NCBI GenBank assembly: GCA_903871875.1
Contig: CAIQIR010000069.1
Coordinates: 1 to 64,000 of the forward strand
DNA from: an uncultured Schlesneria sp.
GTDB lineage: Bacteria > Planctomycetota > Planctomycetia > Planctomycetales > Planctomycetaceae
DNA: 64,000 nucleotides
Direction of reading: 5' to 3'
Part shown: in pieces, positions 26,515 to 32,208 of the stretch
Layout of the letters: every line of letters starts with the position of its first letter
How positions within the stretch are numbered: the first letter of the stretch is position 1
Made by a program: the position numbers and the translations under genes
The notes under the pieces: model-generated
Told to the model about the DNA's origin: nothing
Database searches by the model: none
The model's input: only the letters and a program-made list of their open reading frames with translations

Positions 26515-26575
26515 AGTGACGTTTGAGTGAGGATAGAAAACTCAAACGACATTGCCAATCTGCTGGAGACGACTG

Positions 26576-27493
26576 ATGTCCATTCGATCCGCTCTTGTTG
26601 GATGGCCACGTCATTATCTTCTGACATTGCAAATCTTGTGGGCGACATTGCTATTCCTTGAGCCTCCATCTCTATCTGCCGACGAGATTGTCTTTCCCCA
26701 TGAACTGTGGCAGCAGAAAAATGCTGCGGAGATGGGACTTGATGATTCGAAGTTGGAAGCGGTGGCAACTGCGCAGCGTTCGCGCGGATGTGTGATCAAA
26801 AAAGGGTACGTTGTTAAGACGTGGGGCTCTCAGTCGGAAAAGGGTGATTTGGCGTCATCGGCCAAGACGGCTCTGTCGACGTTACTGATGTTCGCCCACA
26901 AACAAGGTAGGATCAAAAGCTTTGATCAACCGATCGTCGATTTCGGTTGGGAATTGTCGTCCAACGATCAGACGATGACCTTTCGGCAACTGGCCAGCAT
27001 GACCGGCGGGTATGCGCGTCCAGAGGAATCAGGCAAGGCGTGGGCCCACAACGACTACGCCATTCAGCTCTATCAAAAGAGATTGTTCGACAAAGTCTTT
27101 CATGTACCTGAGCGATTTGGTGCCCTGCAATTGCAAGATGGATTCAACTTTCGAGACACGAACCGGAGGATGCGGGCGTCGGTTCGTGATTTCGCTCGCG
27201 TGGCCTGGTTCCGGATGAATCGAGGTCAATGGAACCGTGTGCAACTGCTGCCTCGTTCCTTCTTCGATGACAACATGCGACCGCAGGTTCCGATTGATCT
27301 GCCGCTGAGTGTTCCGGCGGCGACCGATGACTATCTTAAAATAGGAACCTACGGTGGCGAATCAAATCATTTCTCAAGTGCAGGGCCGGGCATCTACGGA
27401 TTCAACTGGTGGTTCAATAAGACGGGGCGAACTCATTCCGATGAGCTGTCGTGGGCGGATGCCCCCGGATACCGTGATGTTGCTGGGAGTTAG
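26576..27493 (+). CDS. Beta-lactamase-fold serine hydrolase, truncated by a frameshift
   Basis: The intact frame gives 305 residues from ATG 26576 (CTGGAGA upstream; an earlier in-frame start at 26552 is less likely). A signal peptide covers about residues 1-36. SSAKTALSTLL (about 100) is the SxxK nucleophile motif of class C beta-lactamase relatives; MTGGYARPEE, ASVRDFARVAWFRMNRG and GIYGFNWWFNKTGR follow the family order. The frame then ends at TAG 27491-27493, but the missing C-terminal portion of the family continues in another frame from about 27464. The switch is at the five-C run 27459-27463. Such enzymes hydrolyse esters or peptides outside the cytoplasm. It may be a pseudogene or a sequencing error. 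It stands just upstream of two pectinase-like genes. Confidence 0.85.
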   Translation: MSIRSALVGWPRHYLLTLQILWATLLFLEPPSLSADEIVFPHELWQQKNAAEMGLDDSKLEAVATAQRSRGCVIKKGYVVKTWGSQSEKGDLASSAKTALSTLLMFAHKQGRIKSFDQPIVDFGWELSSNDQTMTFRQLASMTGGYARPEESGKAWAHNDYAIQLYQKRLFDKVFHVPERFGALQLQDGFNFRDTNRRMRASVRDFARVAWFRMNRGQWNRVQLLPRSFFDDNMRPQVPIDLPLSVPAATDDYLKIGTYGGESNHFSSAGPGIYGFNWWFNKTGRTHSDELSWADAPGYRDVAGS

Positions 27494-27685: not shown

Positions 27686-30598
27686 ATGTGGAAGATTTTC
27701 GTCGCCTCGAACCTGCTGTTGCTGTGCGCAACTCAATTGTCAGCCGAGACAACGATTGAGGGTACGAAGCAGGTTTGGTATCCCCTGACAATCACTTTTC
27801 AGGGGCCAGAGGCGTCCGCGACACAGAACTCGCCGAACCCGTTTTTGGATTTTCGTCTGCAAGTACGATTCATTGGGCCCGATAAGAAGTCGTATCTTGT
27901 TCCCGGCTATTTCGACGGAGACGGAACGGGTGGACTAATAGGTCGCGCCTGGCGAGTTCGTTTTTCTCCTGATCAGGCCGGAGAATGGACCTATGAAGCG
28001 ACGTTACGCTCGGGGGCCGAGGTGGCTATTCAGCTGGAATCCGACGCCGGAGCATCCGTCTCGATTGACGATTCGTCGGGCAAGTTTGACGTCTTACCAC
28101 GGGATCCCAATGCTGTCGGATTTCTCAAGTGGGGCCAATTGAAATATGTCGGCAAACAGTATCTCAAGTTTCAAGATGGTCCATACTGGCTGCGTGGAGG
28201 AACCGACGAACCAGAAGATTTTCTGGGATATGTCGGCTTCGTACGAACATCTGGCAAGCACCGGTATGCCGTACATGCTCCTGATTGGCGAGAAGGCGAC
28301 CCGGATTGGGGAAAGGGGGACGGACGTGCAATCATCGGGACGCTGAATTACCTGGCAGAGCAGCATGTCAACAGCATCTATTTCCTGACAATGAACATTG
28401 GTGGCGACGGAAAGAACGTCTGGCCCTGGATAGGGGCGATCAATTCCAAGGGGGACGAGTCCGACGATAATGTGCACTTTGACATCGAGAAACTACGGCA
28501 ATGGGAGATCGTCCTCGACCACGCTCAAAGAAAGGGAATCTTTTTGCATGTGGTGTTCAACGAAGCCGAGGACGCTAACAAGCGGGAACTCGACAACGGC
28601 GAATTGGGAGTGGAACGAAAGCTGTACTATCGGGAGATGATTTCCCGATTCGCTCATCACCCCGCGCTGCAGTGGAACCTTTGTGAAGAATTCGACCTGA
28701 ACTTCGATCTCGGCGCCGAGCGGGTCCGTGCGTTTGCCGACTATGTTCACGCTCTAGATCCTTATGGCCATCCGATCACGGTGCATAGCGCTGGTGATCC
28801 GGTTGAGAAATTGCGATTTACCTATGGTGATTCACGATTCAGTATGACGTCGATTCAGCTAAATCAACGTCCGATTCACGAAGTTACGGAGGCAGTTCGT
28901 CGAGAGACAATCAAGGCGGGAAGACCACTGCCGATCAGTTTGGACGAATTTACCTTGGATCGCGGACAACGAGCCTCTCATATTCCAATAGACGATGCCG
29001 ACGGACATCGCCGCGAAAAAATCTGGCCGACCTATTTTTCCGGTGGAATGCTCGAATTCATCCTGGACGATTTGTTGAAAACAGACAATTTCAAAACAAC
29101 GCAGCGGGAACTGCTATGGAAATACATGTGGTACGCACGGAAGTTCATGGAAGCGGAATTGCCGTTTTGGGAGATGGAGCCTGCCGACGAACTCTCGGCG
29201 AACGGCGGAACGATTTCGATCGGGATCGGGAAGGGAAAAGCCGTTCCCATGGGGCCGCAGGTCTTTGCCCAATCAGGCGAGGTCTATGCGGTTTATTTTC
29301 CAATTACGGAATCGACCGGGACCTTAGACATCACTCCGTTAAAGGGGGCCGCGACGAAGCGCTGGTACAACCCGCGAACGGGAGAGTTTTCCGGAGAGGC
29401 GATTCAAATCTCCGGCGGTGCAATTCATGACGTGGGCAAACCACCTGTCGAACCAGGTCTTGATTGGGTGCTGTTGATTCGCAAAGGAATTCCTCCGAAA
29501 AAAAATGCGATTGAGACTTCGGGCTTTCGAGATGGAGCCGGTCACTGGCGGGGGATTCGTGACGATTCTCGAGTCATCCAGGCGGAGCCCGATCAACCAG
29601 CTTACTCGCCCGAACAGGTCGCCGACATTGTCGAAAATATCCTGTTGTTTCAGCGGGCGAATGGCGGCTGGCCAAAGGACTATGACATGCTGGCTATCCT
29701 GACCGAATCACAAAAAGAAGCAATCCGATCAACGCACGAGACATTCGATTCTTCGTTCGATAATCACAACATTCATTCTCAAGTCGATTATCTGGCCAAG
29801 GCCTACACGCAACTTGGATCGACGGCCTGTCGCGACGCCTGTCTGCGAGGCTTCGATTTTATGTTGCAGGCGCAATCAGCCAACGGAGGTTTCCCTCAGC
29901 GTTTTCCAGATCCCAAGGGTTATTACGCTCATATCACATTCAATGACGGCGTAATGATTGGAGTTCTGAACGTCTTTCACGACGTCGTTGATGGCGCTCC
30001 ACATTGGAAATGGCTTGATGAAGAGCGCATTCAGCAGGCCCGGATGGCCATCAATTTGGGTGTCGAATGCATTCTGAAATGCCAAATTCGAGTGGCCGAC
30101 GTTCGGACAGGTTGGTGCCAACAGCACGACAATCAGACTTATGAAGCGGCATCGGCTCGAACATTCGAATTGGCTTCGGTTTGTCCACAGGAAACGACCG
30201 AGATTGCTCGGTTGTTGATGCGGCAATGTCATCCAGAACCGGCGGTTGTTACCGCCGTGGATGACGCCGTGATATGGTTGAAACGTGTCGTGATTGAAGG
30301 GATCCGTACCGAGAAGATTCCGGCTCCCGACATTGAGTTTTTGCGGCATCGAGCCAATTTTGATGTGGTGGTTCAACAGGACTCCAAGGCCAAACCGATT
30401 TGGGCCAGACACTATGAAATCGGAACAGACCGGCCTATTTTCGCCGGTCGAGATGCCGTGAAGCGATATGCTCTTAGCGAGATCGAACGCGAGCGACGCA
30501 CTGGAACCCGCTGGTACGGATCGTGGCCGGCCCGGCTGCTGGAAAAAGAATATCCGCAGTGGCGCGGATCGTTAAATCCGAATGTCGGCCATCGCTGA
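27686..30598 (+). CDS. Secreted fusion: DUF5060 and glycosidase-like TIM barrel joined to PL10 pectate lyase
   Basis: Length is 970 residues from ATG 27686 (GAGGAA upstream; the frame opens at a TTG 12 codons earlier). Residues 1-18 form a signal peptide. Residues about 22-140 are a DUF5060 beta-sandwich, 146-500 a TIM barrel of the DUF4038/GH-like type with QWNLCEEFDLN (possible acid/base Glu) and PISLDEFTLD (possible nucleophile), and 524-600 a collagen-binding-like C-terminal sandwich (KRWYNPRTGEFSGEA, then LDWVLLIRK). Residues about 612-970 match polysaccharide lyase family 10: FQRANGGWPKDYD, QSANGGFPQRFPDPKGYYAH, TGWCQQHDNQTYEAASAR and TRWYGSWPARLLEKEYPQW. The lyase breaks polygalacturonan by beta-elimination with calcium; the barrel may act on a side chain. 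Both parts are usually separate proteins. It follows the serine hydrolase and precedes a pectate lyase gene. Confidence 0.85.
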   Translation: MWKIFVASNLLLLCATQLSAETTIEGTKQVWYPLTITFQGPEASATQNSPNPFLDFRLQVRFIGPDKKSYLVPGYFDGDGTGGLIGRAWRVRFSPDQAGEWTYEATLRSGAEVAIQLESDAGASVSIDDSSGKFDVLPRDPNAVGFLKWGQLKYVGKQYLKFQDGPYWLRGGTDEPEDFLGYVGFVRTSGKHRYAVHAPDWREGDPDWGKGDGRAIIGTLNYLAEQHVNSIYFLTMNIGGDGKNVWPWIGAINSKGDESDDNVHFDIEKLRQWEIVLDHAQRKGIFLHVVFNEAEDANKRELDNGELGVERKLYYREMISRFAHHPALQWNLCEEFDLNFDLGAERVRAFADYVHALDPYGHPITVHSAGDPVEKLRFTYGDSRFSMTSIQLNQRPIHEVTEAVRRETIKAGRPLPISLDEFTLDRGQRASHIPIDDADGHRREKIWPTYFSGGMLEFILDDLLKTDNFKTTQRELLWKYMWYARKFMEAELPFWEMEPADELSANGGTISIGIGKGKAVPMGPQVFAQSGEVYAVYFPITESTGTLDITPLKGAATKRWYNPRTGEFSGEAIQISGGAIHDVGKPPVEPGLDWVLLIRKGIPPKKNAIETSGFRDGAGHWRGIRDDSRVIQAEPDQPAYSPEQVADIVENILLFQRANGGWPKDYDMLAILTESQKEAIRSTHETFDSSFDNHNIHSQVDYLAKAYTQLGSTACRDACLRGFDFMLQAQSANGGFPQRFPDPKGYYAHITFNDGVMIGVLNVFHDVVDGAPHWKWLDEERIQQARMAINLGVECILKCQIRVADVRTGWCQQHDNQTYEAASARTFELASVCPQETTEIARLLMRQCHPEPAVVTAVDDAVIWLKRVVIEGIRTEKIPAPDIEFLRHRANFDVVVQQDSKAKPIWARHYEIGTDRPIFAGRDAVKRYALSEIERERRTGTRWYGSWPARLLEKEYPQWRGSLNPNVGHR

Positions 30599-30849
30599 AT
30601 TACATCGAACGATTGCTCGAGGTAAGTTAGACGCAGCACGAATAGAACAACGTCGAGAGACCTTTCAGCCGTTGAAGCGGTGATCGGTGGTCGATTGTCT
30701 AGGGTGAGCACAAACGGATCCGGTGAAAAACTGCAGGAAATGTTTGCTCATACAATGTTCTTGGGTGCGTCTCGATGGTTACAGTCTTCGCTGCGACGTT
30801 TGATTGTACTTTCATGAGCGTTGGTTACCACGCTGGAGAAACTTCCCTG

Positions 30850-32208
30850 ATGAAAAACGGCAGTCCGTGGGTGGTTATGTTTGTTGCTTGTATCACTCTT
30901 CTTAATATGAGCGGGGCACGTGGCGACGACAGTCAGCAAATAGCCTTTCCTGGTGCTGAGGGCTACGGTCGATTTGCTCGGGGAGGACGTGGTGGCGACG
31001 TCTACCATGTCACGACCCTCGAAGATGATGGTTCTGGGTCGCTGCGCGAAGGGCTGCGTACTGCTAACGGTCCCCGCACGATTGTTTTTAATCTGTCGGG
31101 AACAATCGAGTTGAAATCGCCGCTGACGGTCGACAAATCGTTCCTGACGATTGCAGGTCAATCGGCGCCAGGCGACGGGATTTGTCTGAAAGATCAGACT
31201 TTCAAGATCAAGAATGCGTCTCATGTGATCATGAGATACATCCGAATTCGGCTGGGTGATAAGAACAAACCCGCCAATTCAGGACCCGACGGGATGACGA
31301 CCGACGACATTGATCACGTGATTTTCGATCATATTACTGCGACGTGGGGGATTGATGGAAATCACGATTTGCGACGCGGAGGGCATTTTACCTTGCAGTG
31401 GTCTATCTACGCTGAAGCACTCAATAAGAGCCTGCATGAAAAGGGCGAACATGCGATGCTGGCGTCGTTTCGCGATCTGACCAATGGCATTTCCCTGCAT
31501 CACAATCTGTTTGCGAGCAGTCGTGATCGGCATCCCACGATTGGGGGGAGCCCACGAACCAAGCCCGAAGCGATCGCCGACTTCCGCAATAACCTGGTCT
31601 ACAATCTCAGCGGGGCCACGAATCTGGGCAATTGCCGCATTAACGTGATCAACAACTACTACCGACCGGGGCCAAACACACCTGAGGGGAATCGGCCGTT
31701 GGCAACAAAGACGGAACAACCTGAGGCCCTGAAAGTGTTTCTCACGGGCAATCTGTTTGAGAACAATCCCCTGTTCACCAGCGACAACTGGAAAGCCGTT
31801 GATTTTGACCGCTGGTCTAAAGGCAACTATCAGATGACGTCTCTGGAACAGGTGCGAGTCGACAAGGAGTTCGACATCGGAGCAGCGAAGCCCAAAACCG
31901 ACGTTGCTGCGGCGGCGTATGAGCGGATCTTGCTAACGGCCGGGGCATCGCATCGACGTGATGCGGCAGATCAGCGCATCGTGGATGGCGTTCGGTTGCG
32001 ATCAAATCGCCTGATTGATTCTCAAGACGAAGTCGGAGCCTGGCCCGCATTGAACAGCGAACCTGCTCCGCTTGATACGGATGGTGACGGAATTCCCGAT
32101 GAATGGGAAAAGAAACAGGGGCTTAGTCCGAACGATGCCAGCGATCGGAATGGTGACCTTAACAAAGATGGCTTCACCAATCTGGAAGACTATCTTAACG
32201 CTCTTTAA
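30850..32208 (+). CDS. Secreted pectate lyase-like beta-helix protein with a C-terminal calcium motif tail
   Basis: Length is 452 residues. ATG 30850 is chosen because GGAGA precedes it and MKNGSPWVVMFVACITLLNM is a signal peptide; the open frame starts 25 codons earlier. The protein begins AFPGAEGYGRFARGGRGGDV, the typical start of planctomycete PL1-type pectate lyases, followed by TIVFNLSGTIEL, FLTIAGQSAPGDGI and IRIRLGDKN of a right-handed parallel beta-helix. SSRDRHPTIGGSPR (about 222) resembles the catalytic Arg region. The tail DTDGDGIPDEWEKKQGLSP and DRNGDLNKDGFTNLEDYLN is a pair of calcium-binding dockerin/thrombospondin-3-like loops, perhaps for anchoring or stability. With the preceding PL10 fusion it points to pectin or polygalacturonate breakdown outside the cell. 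Confidence 0.88.
   Translation: MKNGSPWVVMFVACITLLNMSGARGDDSQQIAFPGAEGYGRFARGGRGGDVYHVTTLEDDGSGSLREGLRTANGPRTIVFNLSGTIELKSPLTVDKSFLTIAGQSAPGDGICLKDQTFKIKNASHVIMRYIRIRLGDKNKPANSGPDGMTTDDIDHVIFDHITATWGIDGNHDLRRGGHFTLQWSIYAEALNKSLHEKGEHAMLASFRDLTNGISLHHNLFASSRDRHPTIGGSPRTKPEAIADFRNNLVYNLSGATNLGNCRINVINNYYRPGPNTPEGNRPLATKTEQPEALKVFLTGNLFENNPLFTSDNWKAVDFDRWSKGNYQMTSLEQVRVDKEFDIGAAKPKTDVAAAAYERILLTAGASHRRDAADQRIVDGVRLRSNRLIDSQDEVGAWPALNSEPAPLDTDGDGIPDEWEKKQGLSPNDASDRNGDLNKDGFTNLEDYLNAL

Follow-up and report, generated by a model that had tools for sequence, protein, structure and literature searches.

A DUF5060/glycosidase-like barrel fused to a PL10 pectate lyase in an uncultured Schlesneria species and its proposed role in pectin degradation

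GH140 apiosidases are enzymes of pectic polymers, and apiose decorates polygalacturonate. In clan GH-A, an Asn usually stands directly before the acid/base Glu, while the PL10 lyase Pel10A carries D389, D451, R524, and R610, which we take to be its catalytic and calcium positions. For PF13204 (GH140), the first catalytic position has been described as Asp in 82% and Glu in 17% of cases, and the beta-sandwich PF12904 as a GH-associated domain rather than a collagen binder (PMC4032388). The lyase PfPL1 acts on apiogalacturonan (PMC11229556). DUF5060 barrels occur widely in Planctomycetota, Bacteroidota, and Verrucomicrobiota, but they are labelled as a "domain of unknown function," and no tested substrate was found for them apart from that of the distantly similar mannanase ManDH5. 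In the literature searched, "DUF5060" was found only in an unrelated context, and no paper was found combining pectate lyase, PL10, CE8, and "fused." Here, we describe a chain in which such a barrel and a PL10 lyase are joined, encoded within the window, that is, the whole 64,000-nucleotide stretch of DNA analyzed (contig CAIQIR010000069.1 of an uncultured Schlesneria species). Its parts are known enzyme kinds, and their combination is new.

Domain architecture of the fused protein

Positions 27686-30598 of the window (+ strand) form a single ORF of 970 codons, with an ATG at 27686, a stop ending at 30598, and no internal stops. A sequence-only reading had proposed a secreted 970-residue chain composed of a DUF5060 sandwich, a barrel, a collagen-binding-like sandwich, and PL10; these domains and the signal peptide were borne out, and the domain reading proved nearly exact. 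The locus comprises the following features.

26552..27493, +, upstream serine hydrolase, beta-lactamase fold, SxxK retained; 3' end shifted to another frame in this assembly
27686..27748, +, signal peptide, residues 1-21, MWKIFVASNLLLLCATQLSAE (read from the sequence; helix predicted at 2-15)
27770..28003, +, DUF5060 beta-sandwich, residues 29-106 (PF16586, E 8.9e-21)
28133..29155, +, TIM barrel, residues about 150-490 (AlphaFold, GH140/GH5 structural matches, conservation)
28688-28690, +, codon of candidate acid/base E335 (barrel, after strand 4)
28946-28948, +, codon of candidate nucleophile E421 (barrel, end of strand 7)
29258..29479, +, PF12904 "Collagen_bind_2," C-terminal GH-associated beta-sandwich, residues 525-598 (Pfam E 7.7e-6; GH140 structures have the same domain order)
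29480..29650, +, joint, residues 599-655 (comparison with the barrel-less L070 PL10 and the fused G415 protein; low pLDDT at 603-638)
29651..30538, +, PL10 pectate lyase domain, residues 656-951 (Pfam, NCBIfam, 1gxm alignment)
30775..32208, +, downstream PL1 (subfamily-2-like) pectate lyase (PelZ model; structure match 9buj)

The PF16586 match reaches 74.4 bits against a cut-off of 27.2 and is the sole DUF5060 in its genome. In the AlphaFold model, built with 50 aligned sequences, most blocks of residues 21-600 have a pLDDT of 85-98, while the PL10 half is of low confidence (mostly 26-70) because just two aligned rows cover it; this half was therefore judged from sequence homology and not from the model. 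PF09492 (Pec_lyase) matches residues 656-951 with an E-value of 7.9e-85 (285.1 bits, cut-off 22), and the NCBIfam pectate lyase model TIGR02474 scores 271.7 bits (cut-off 189.8). PL10 homology begins near residue 609, within the joint and with the N-terminal lead IETSGFRDGAGHWRG, and spans about 609-961; a lack of PL10 in residues 612-970, which would have refuted the earlier reading, was thus not observed. Alignment to 1gxm places D692, D754, R825, and R922 at Pel10A D389, D451, R524, and R610. Nothing in the sequence suggests an inactive lyase, and family membership together with the kept catalytic residues indicates that the domain would beta-eliminate de-esterified polygalacturonate.

The region between the two sandwiches has no Pfam match. 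E335 lies after strand 4 and E421 at the end of strand 7 (strand segments 328-331 and 417-422), so that a Glu stands at the C-terminal end of each of these two strands, as in clan GH-A; E334, rather than the Asn usual in that clan, precedes E335 (49/50 rows). The proposal of two candidate Glu residues in the barrel was strengthened by the alignment, in which E421 occurs in all 50 rows and E334/E335 in 49. More broadly, E334, E335, D420, E421, R321, W330, and H367 are near invariant over very distant homologs and are kept both here and in a second fused protein (G415).

Structural comparison of the barrel model with VIA-align placed four structures at or near the top: the GH140 apiosidase 8t9w (Z 31.2, 383 residues, 3.0 A), BT_1012 (Z 30.6), 4n0r (Z 28.9), and ManDH5, a GH5 mannanase (Z 27.6, 465 residues including a DUF5060-like domain). 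More GH5 mannanases followed. The profile of the 50 aligned sequences likewise matched 8t9w (E 2.7e-12) and 4n0r (E 2.2e-11), and hhalign against four PF13204 proteins gave a probability of 97.9. The two highest Z scores and the PF12904 match (E 7.7e-6) agree with a GH140-type arrangement of barrel and PF12904 sandwich. Membership of GH140 by Pfam was rejected, as PF13204 has no match in the fusion protein at E<=1; among the 50 aligned barrel members, one matches PF13204 (E 5.6e-5) and 49 match PF16586. BT_1012 has the catalytic pair Asp187 and Glu284; the candidates here are E335 and E421, and Glu is the minority state in PF13204. In the confident model, the barrel has a clan GH-A-type fold, closest to the GH140 apiosidases and to the GH5 mannanase ManDH5.

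Conservation and rarity of the fusion

The same joined ORF is present in a second species of the genus (G415), with 71% identity over residues 15-963, and the gene order of serine hydrolase, barrel-PL10, and PL1 lyase is common to both. Consequently, an assembly or frame artefact joining two genes was rejected; the gene-prediction error that the sequence-only reading had itself raised did not materialize, and the comparison of the two sequences makes a frame error very unlikely. Between the two species, pS is about 0.77-0.92, near saturation, and pN is 0.11-0.30 (0.108 in the barrel, 0.196 in PL10, and 0.25 across the joint). Near-saturated synonymous sites combined with low nonsynonymous change indicate that the fusion is not recent and that both halves are under purifying selection.

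Among 294 planctomycete genomes, barrel and PL10 matches fall in one frame only in the window's own genome, and 170 genomes of the same family added G415 alone. Two other phyla, together 584 genomes, were also searched: in the 296 genomes from the phylum of the Maribacter locus (G449), no listed match spans barrel and PL10, and in the 288 from the phylum of the Opitutaceae locus (G448), the listed matches cover the barrel or the PL10 half, never both. The barrel unit (residues about 24-600) occurs, by itself or joined to different partners, in Planctomycetota, Bacteroidota, Verrucomicrobiota, Chloroflexota, Pseudomonadota, Acidobacteriota, and Myxococcota, and most genomes having both barrel and PL10 keep them as separate genes. 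The earlier statement that the two units normally occur apart is supported, the halves being separate elsewhere in the genomes searched, and the barrel-PL10 fusion is rare, so far being found in two species of one genus.

Flanking genes and alternative fusions

Upstream of the fusion, the copy of the serine hydrolase gene in G415 is an intact ORF of 370 codons, and the out-of-frame 3' end in the window may reflect either an incipient pseudogene or an assembly error. When the serine hydrolases of the window and its relatives are aligned, SxxK is kept as SSAK or SAAK, and the class C YxN motif appears as YND, with HND in the window copy. Downstream, the true start of the PL1 gene is likely near 30850, where it would yield the signal peptide MKNGSPWVVMFVACITLLNMSGARG. 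Its product scores 128.7 bits against the PelZ equivalog model NF041900, below the cut-off of 840, and its best solved relative is 9buj, PfPL1 (PL1_2), with an E-value of 2.1e-47. The window genome has no GH28 gene and no CE8 esterase gene; the host's pectin use may be limited by their absence, which also fits, without proving, a de-esterifying role of the upstream hydrolase.

The same modules were found in other pairings. Fusions with the serine hydrolase ahead of the barrel occur in 13 distinct places, and the barrel-hydrolase order in two (L063, G345). In L063 (7812-10733) and L155 (1480-4389), the serine hydrolase follows the barrel instead of preceding it, as it more commonly does, and close relatives show both orders. 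The barrel protein L109 (131-2104) has a short N-terminal stretch resembling the beginning of a serine hydrolase, which may be left over from a hydrolase-barrel fusion. Three congeneric species (G422, G424, and G425) carry PL10-PL1 fusions (L070 7938-10334, L149 6375-8813, and L151 6587-9118), in which the two lyases, although of different folds, share one secreted chain of ~800 aa; that of G425 matches the uncultured Schlesneria contig CAIULL010000243.1. Other PL10 fusions in the phylum involve an RGL11-like domain (G414) and GDSL esterases (L005, L008). In the former (L156 4616-7960), an FG-GAP/RGL11-like region (rhamnogalacturonan lyase family 11) precedes PL10, and in L166 (4152-7388, G351), PL10 lies behind an N-terminal region of ~700 residues that has no Pfam match at E<=0.01.

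The barrel is also found beside PL10 as a separate gene. A PL10 gene directly adjoins a hydrolase-barrel gene in G105, while G402 has the two as divergent neighbors. The barrels of G105 and G402 fall in a clade of the barrel tree far from that of the window, so barrel and PL10 became linked on at least two occasions. The recurrence of alternative fusions, considered together with this PL10 neighborhood, connects the barrel with pectin as far as this lineage is concerned. Several of the closest barrels (L062, L064) have no link to PL10, and the neighbors of L062 look unrelated to carbohydrates. Pectin specificity of the barrel family as a whole was rejected, given that Bacteroidota relatives lie in porphyran/agar loci, beside porphyranase, GH16, GH3, and GH43 genes (L094, L096), and in rhamnose/sulfate loci, beside sulfatase, GH78, and GH106 genes (L103). 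Family membership alone therefore does not give the substrate.

Proposed function, rival readings, and comparison with known systems

On balance, we favor the reading that the fusion is a secreted bifunctional pectin-degrading enzyme, in which the barrel trims a side group and PL10 cuts polygalacturonate. In such an enzyme, the unit of DUF5060, GH-A barrel, and PF12904 would act as a retaining glycosidase-type hydrolase via E335 and E421, stripping a side group from, or trimming, the pectic polymer on which the tethered lyase acts; the lyase would then meet a cleared backbone and cut the de-esterified polygalacturonate by beta-elimination. The upstream SxxK serine hydrolase, a possible esterase, may de-esterify pectin, and the fusion would form the center of a small pectin cluster with this hydrolase upstream and the PL1-type lyase downstream. 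The analysis establishes the fusion, its presence in a second species, the folds, the kept residues, and the recurrent linkage, and from these we infer that each half is catalytic, that the barrel acts on a side group, and that the two cooperate. Coupled side-group removal and backbone cleavage, as the sequence-only reading had put it, is plausible: the pectin link gained ground from the PL1-like neighbor, from the PL10-PL1 fusions in congeners, and from the barrel lying beside PL10 in two other genera, the alternative fusions lending independent support. The removal of a side group by the barrel itself is plausible in view of the nearest structures, but weakened by the failed GH140 Pfam match, by a nearly equal resemblance to a GH5 mannanase, and by the agar/porphyran and rhamnose/sulfate contexts of its relatives. 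For the barrel, apiose is a sensible starting guess, as this sugar decorates polygalacturonate and both top structural matches are apiosidases.

The main rival to the apiose reading is a ManDH5-like mannanase activity. A barrel acting as a GH5-like beta-mannanase, or as another endo- or exo-acting beta-glycanase, on hemicellulose would have the fusion cut two adjacent polymers and not one polymer twice. Over residues about 19-601, it is ManDH5 and 4n0r that align the most residues (465-471, Z 27-29), with GH5 mannanases next, and barrel relatives serve several polysaccharide loci; however, the highest Z scores belong to GH140 structures, the profile match is to the apiosidase, Glu334-Glu335 replaces the Asn-Glu dyad, and in this lineage the barrel is paired with pectin enzymes, which leaves this reading rather doubtful. 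It is unlikely, though to a degree not far removed, that adjacent cluster genes became one frame without functional coupling, the halves working independently and sharing one export signal. Such fusing would be easy, as barrel and PL10 are neighbors in G105 and G402, and the PL10 signal peptide is simply absent at the joint; yet G415 still carries the fusion although synonymous divergence is close to saturation, and the joining of the same modules in several other pairings suggests that tethering is favored. That the barrel has lost catalysis and now works as a large module for carbohydrate binding or docking that keeps PL10 on its substrate appears highly improbable. DUF5060 and PF12904 are indeed accessory sandwiches, but the near-invariant barrel residues, from R321 to E421, are retained in both fused proteins, and the barrel changes more slowly than PL10.

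A debranching and cutting pectinase in one chain, if our preferred reading is true, would be the outcome, and being covalently joined to a lyase whose substrate is known provides a concrete, testable substrate hypothesis for one clade of DUF5060 barrels, whose partner enzymes are pointed to by the hydrolase-barrel and PL10-PL1 fusions. More tentatively, DUF5060/Glu-Glu barrels could constitute a GH family of their own, neither GH5 nor GH140, of which one member in this planctomycete genus acts as a pectin side-chain hydrolase coupled to PL10, with serine hydrolase, barrel, PL10, and PL1 forming a swap-and-fuse pectinase kit whose pairings vary by species; we consider this broader proposal possible but less than probable.

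Compared with the GH140 apiosidases BT_1012 (3kzs/5msy) and the mangrove-metagenome 8t9w, the fusion protein has the same barrel and PF12904 sandwich (Z about 31 over 383-388 residues), but at 14-16% identity, without a PF13204 match and with an extra DUF5060; Glu335 stands where PF13204 mostly has Asp (PMC4032388). ManDH5, a GH5 beta-mannanase of Dictyoglomus thermophilum (9gpa etc.), and BVU_0362 (4n0r) match the fusion protein across residues 19-602 (Z 27-29) in fold and in the order of the three domains, while identity is 15-20% and Glu-Glu in the window faces Asn-Glu at the acid/base position (4n0r alignment). Pel10A of Cellvibrio japonicus (1gxm/1gxo; 1r76) has the same full-length domain with the Asp/Asp/Arg/Arg positions, whereas the PL10 of the window sits C-terminal to a DUF5060/GH-A-type unit and lacks its own signal peptide. 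PfPL1 (PL1_2, 9buj) of Pseudoalteromonas fuliginea, the closest solved structure to the downstream gene product, is stand-alone and belongs to a different locus. The PL10-PL1 fusions of the three congeners (G422, G424, G425) come closer, their PL10 being 69-70% identical to that of the window and their PL1 part 77% identical to the downstream gene, and in these barrel-less proteins, PL10 is joined to a lyase on its other side.
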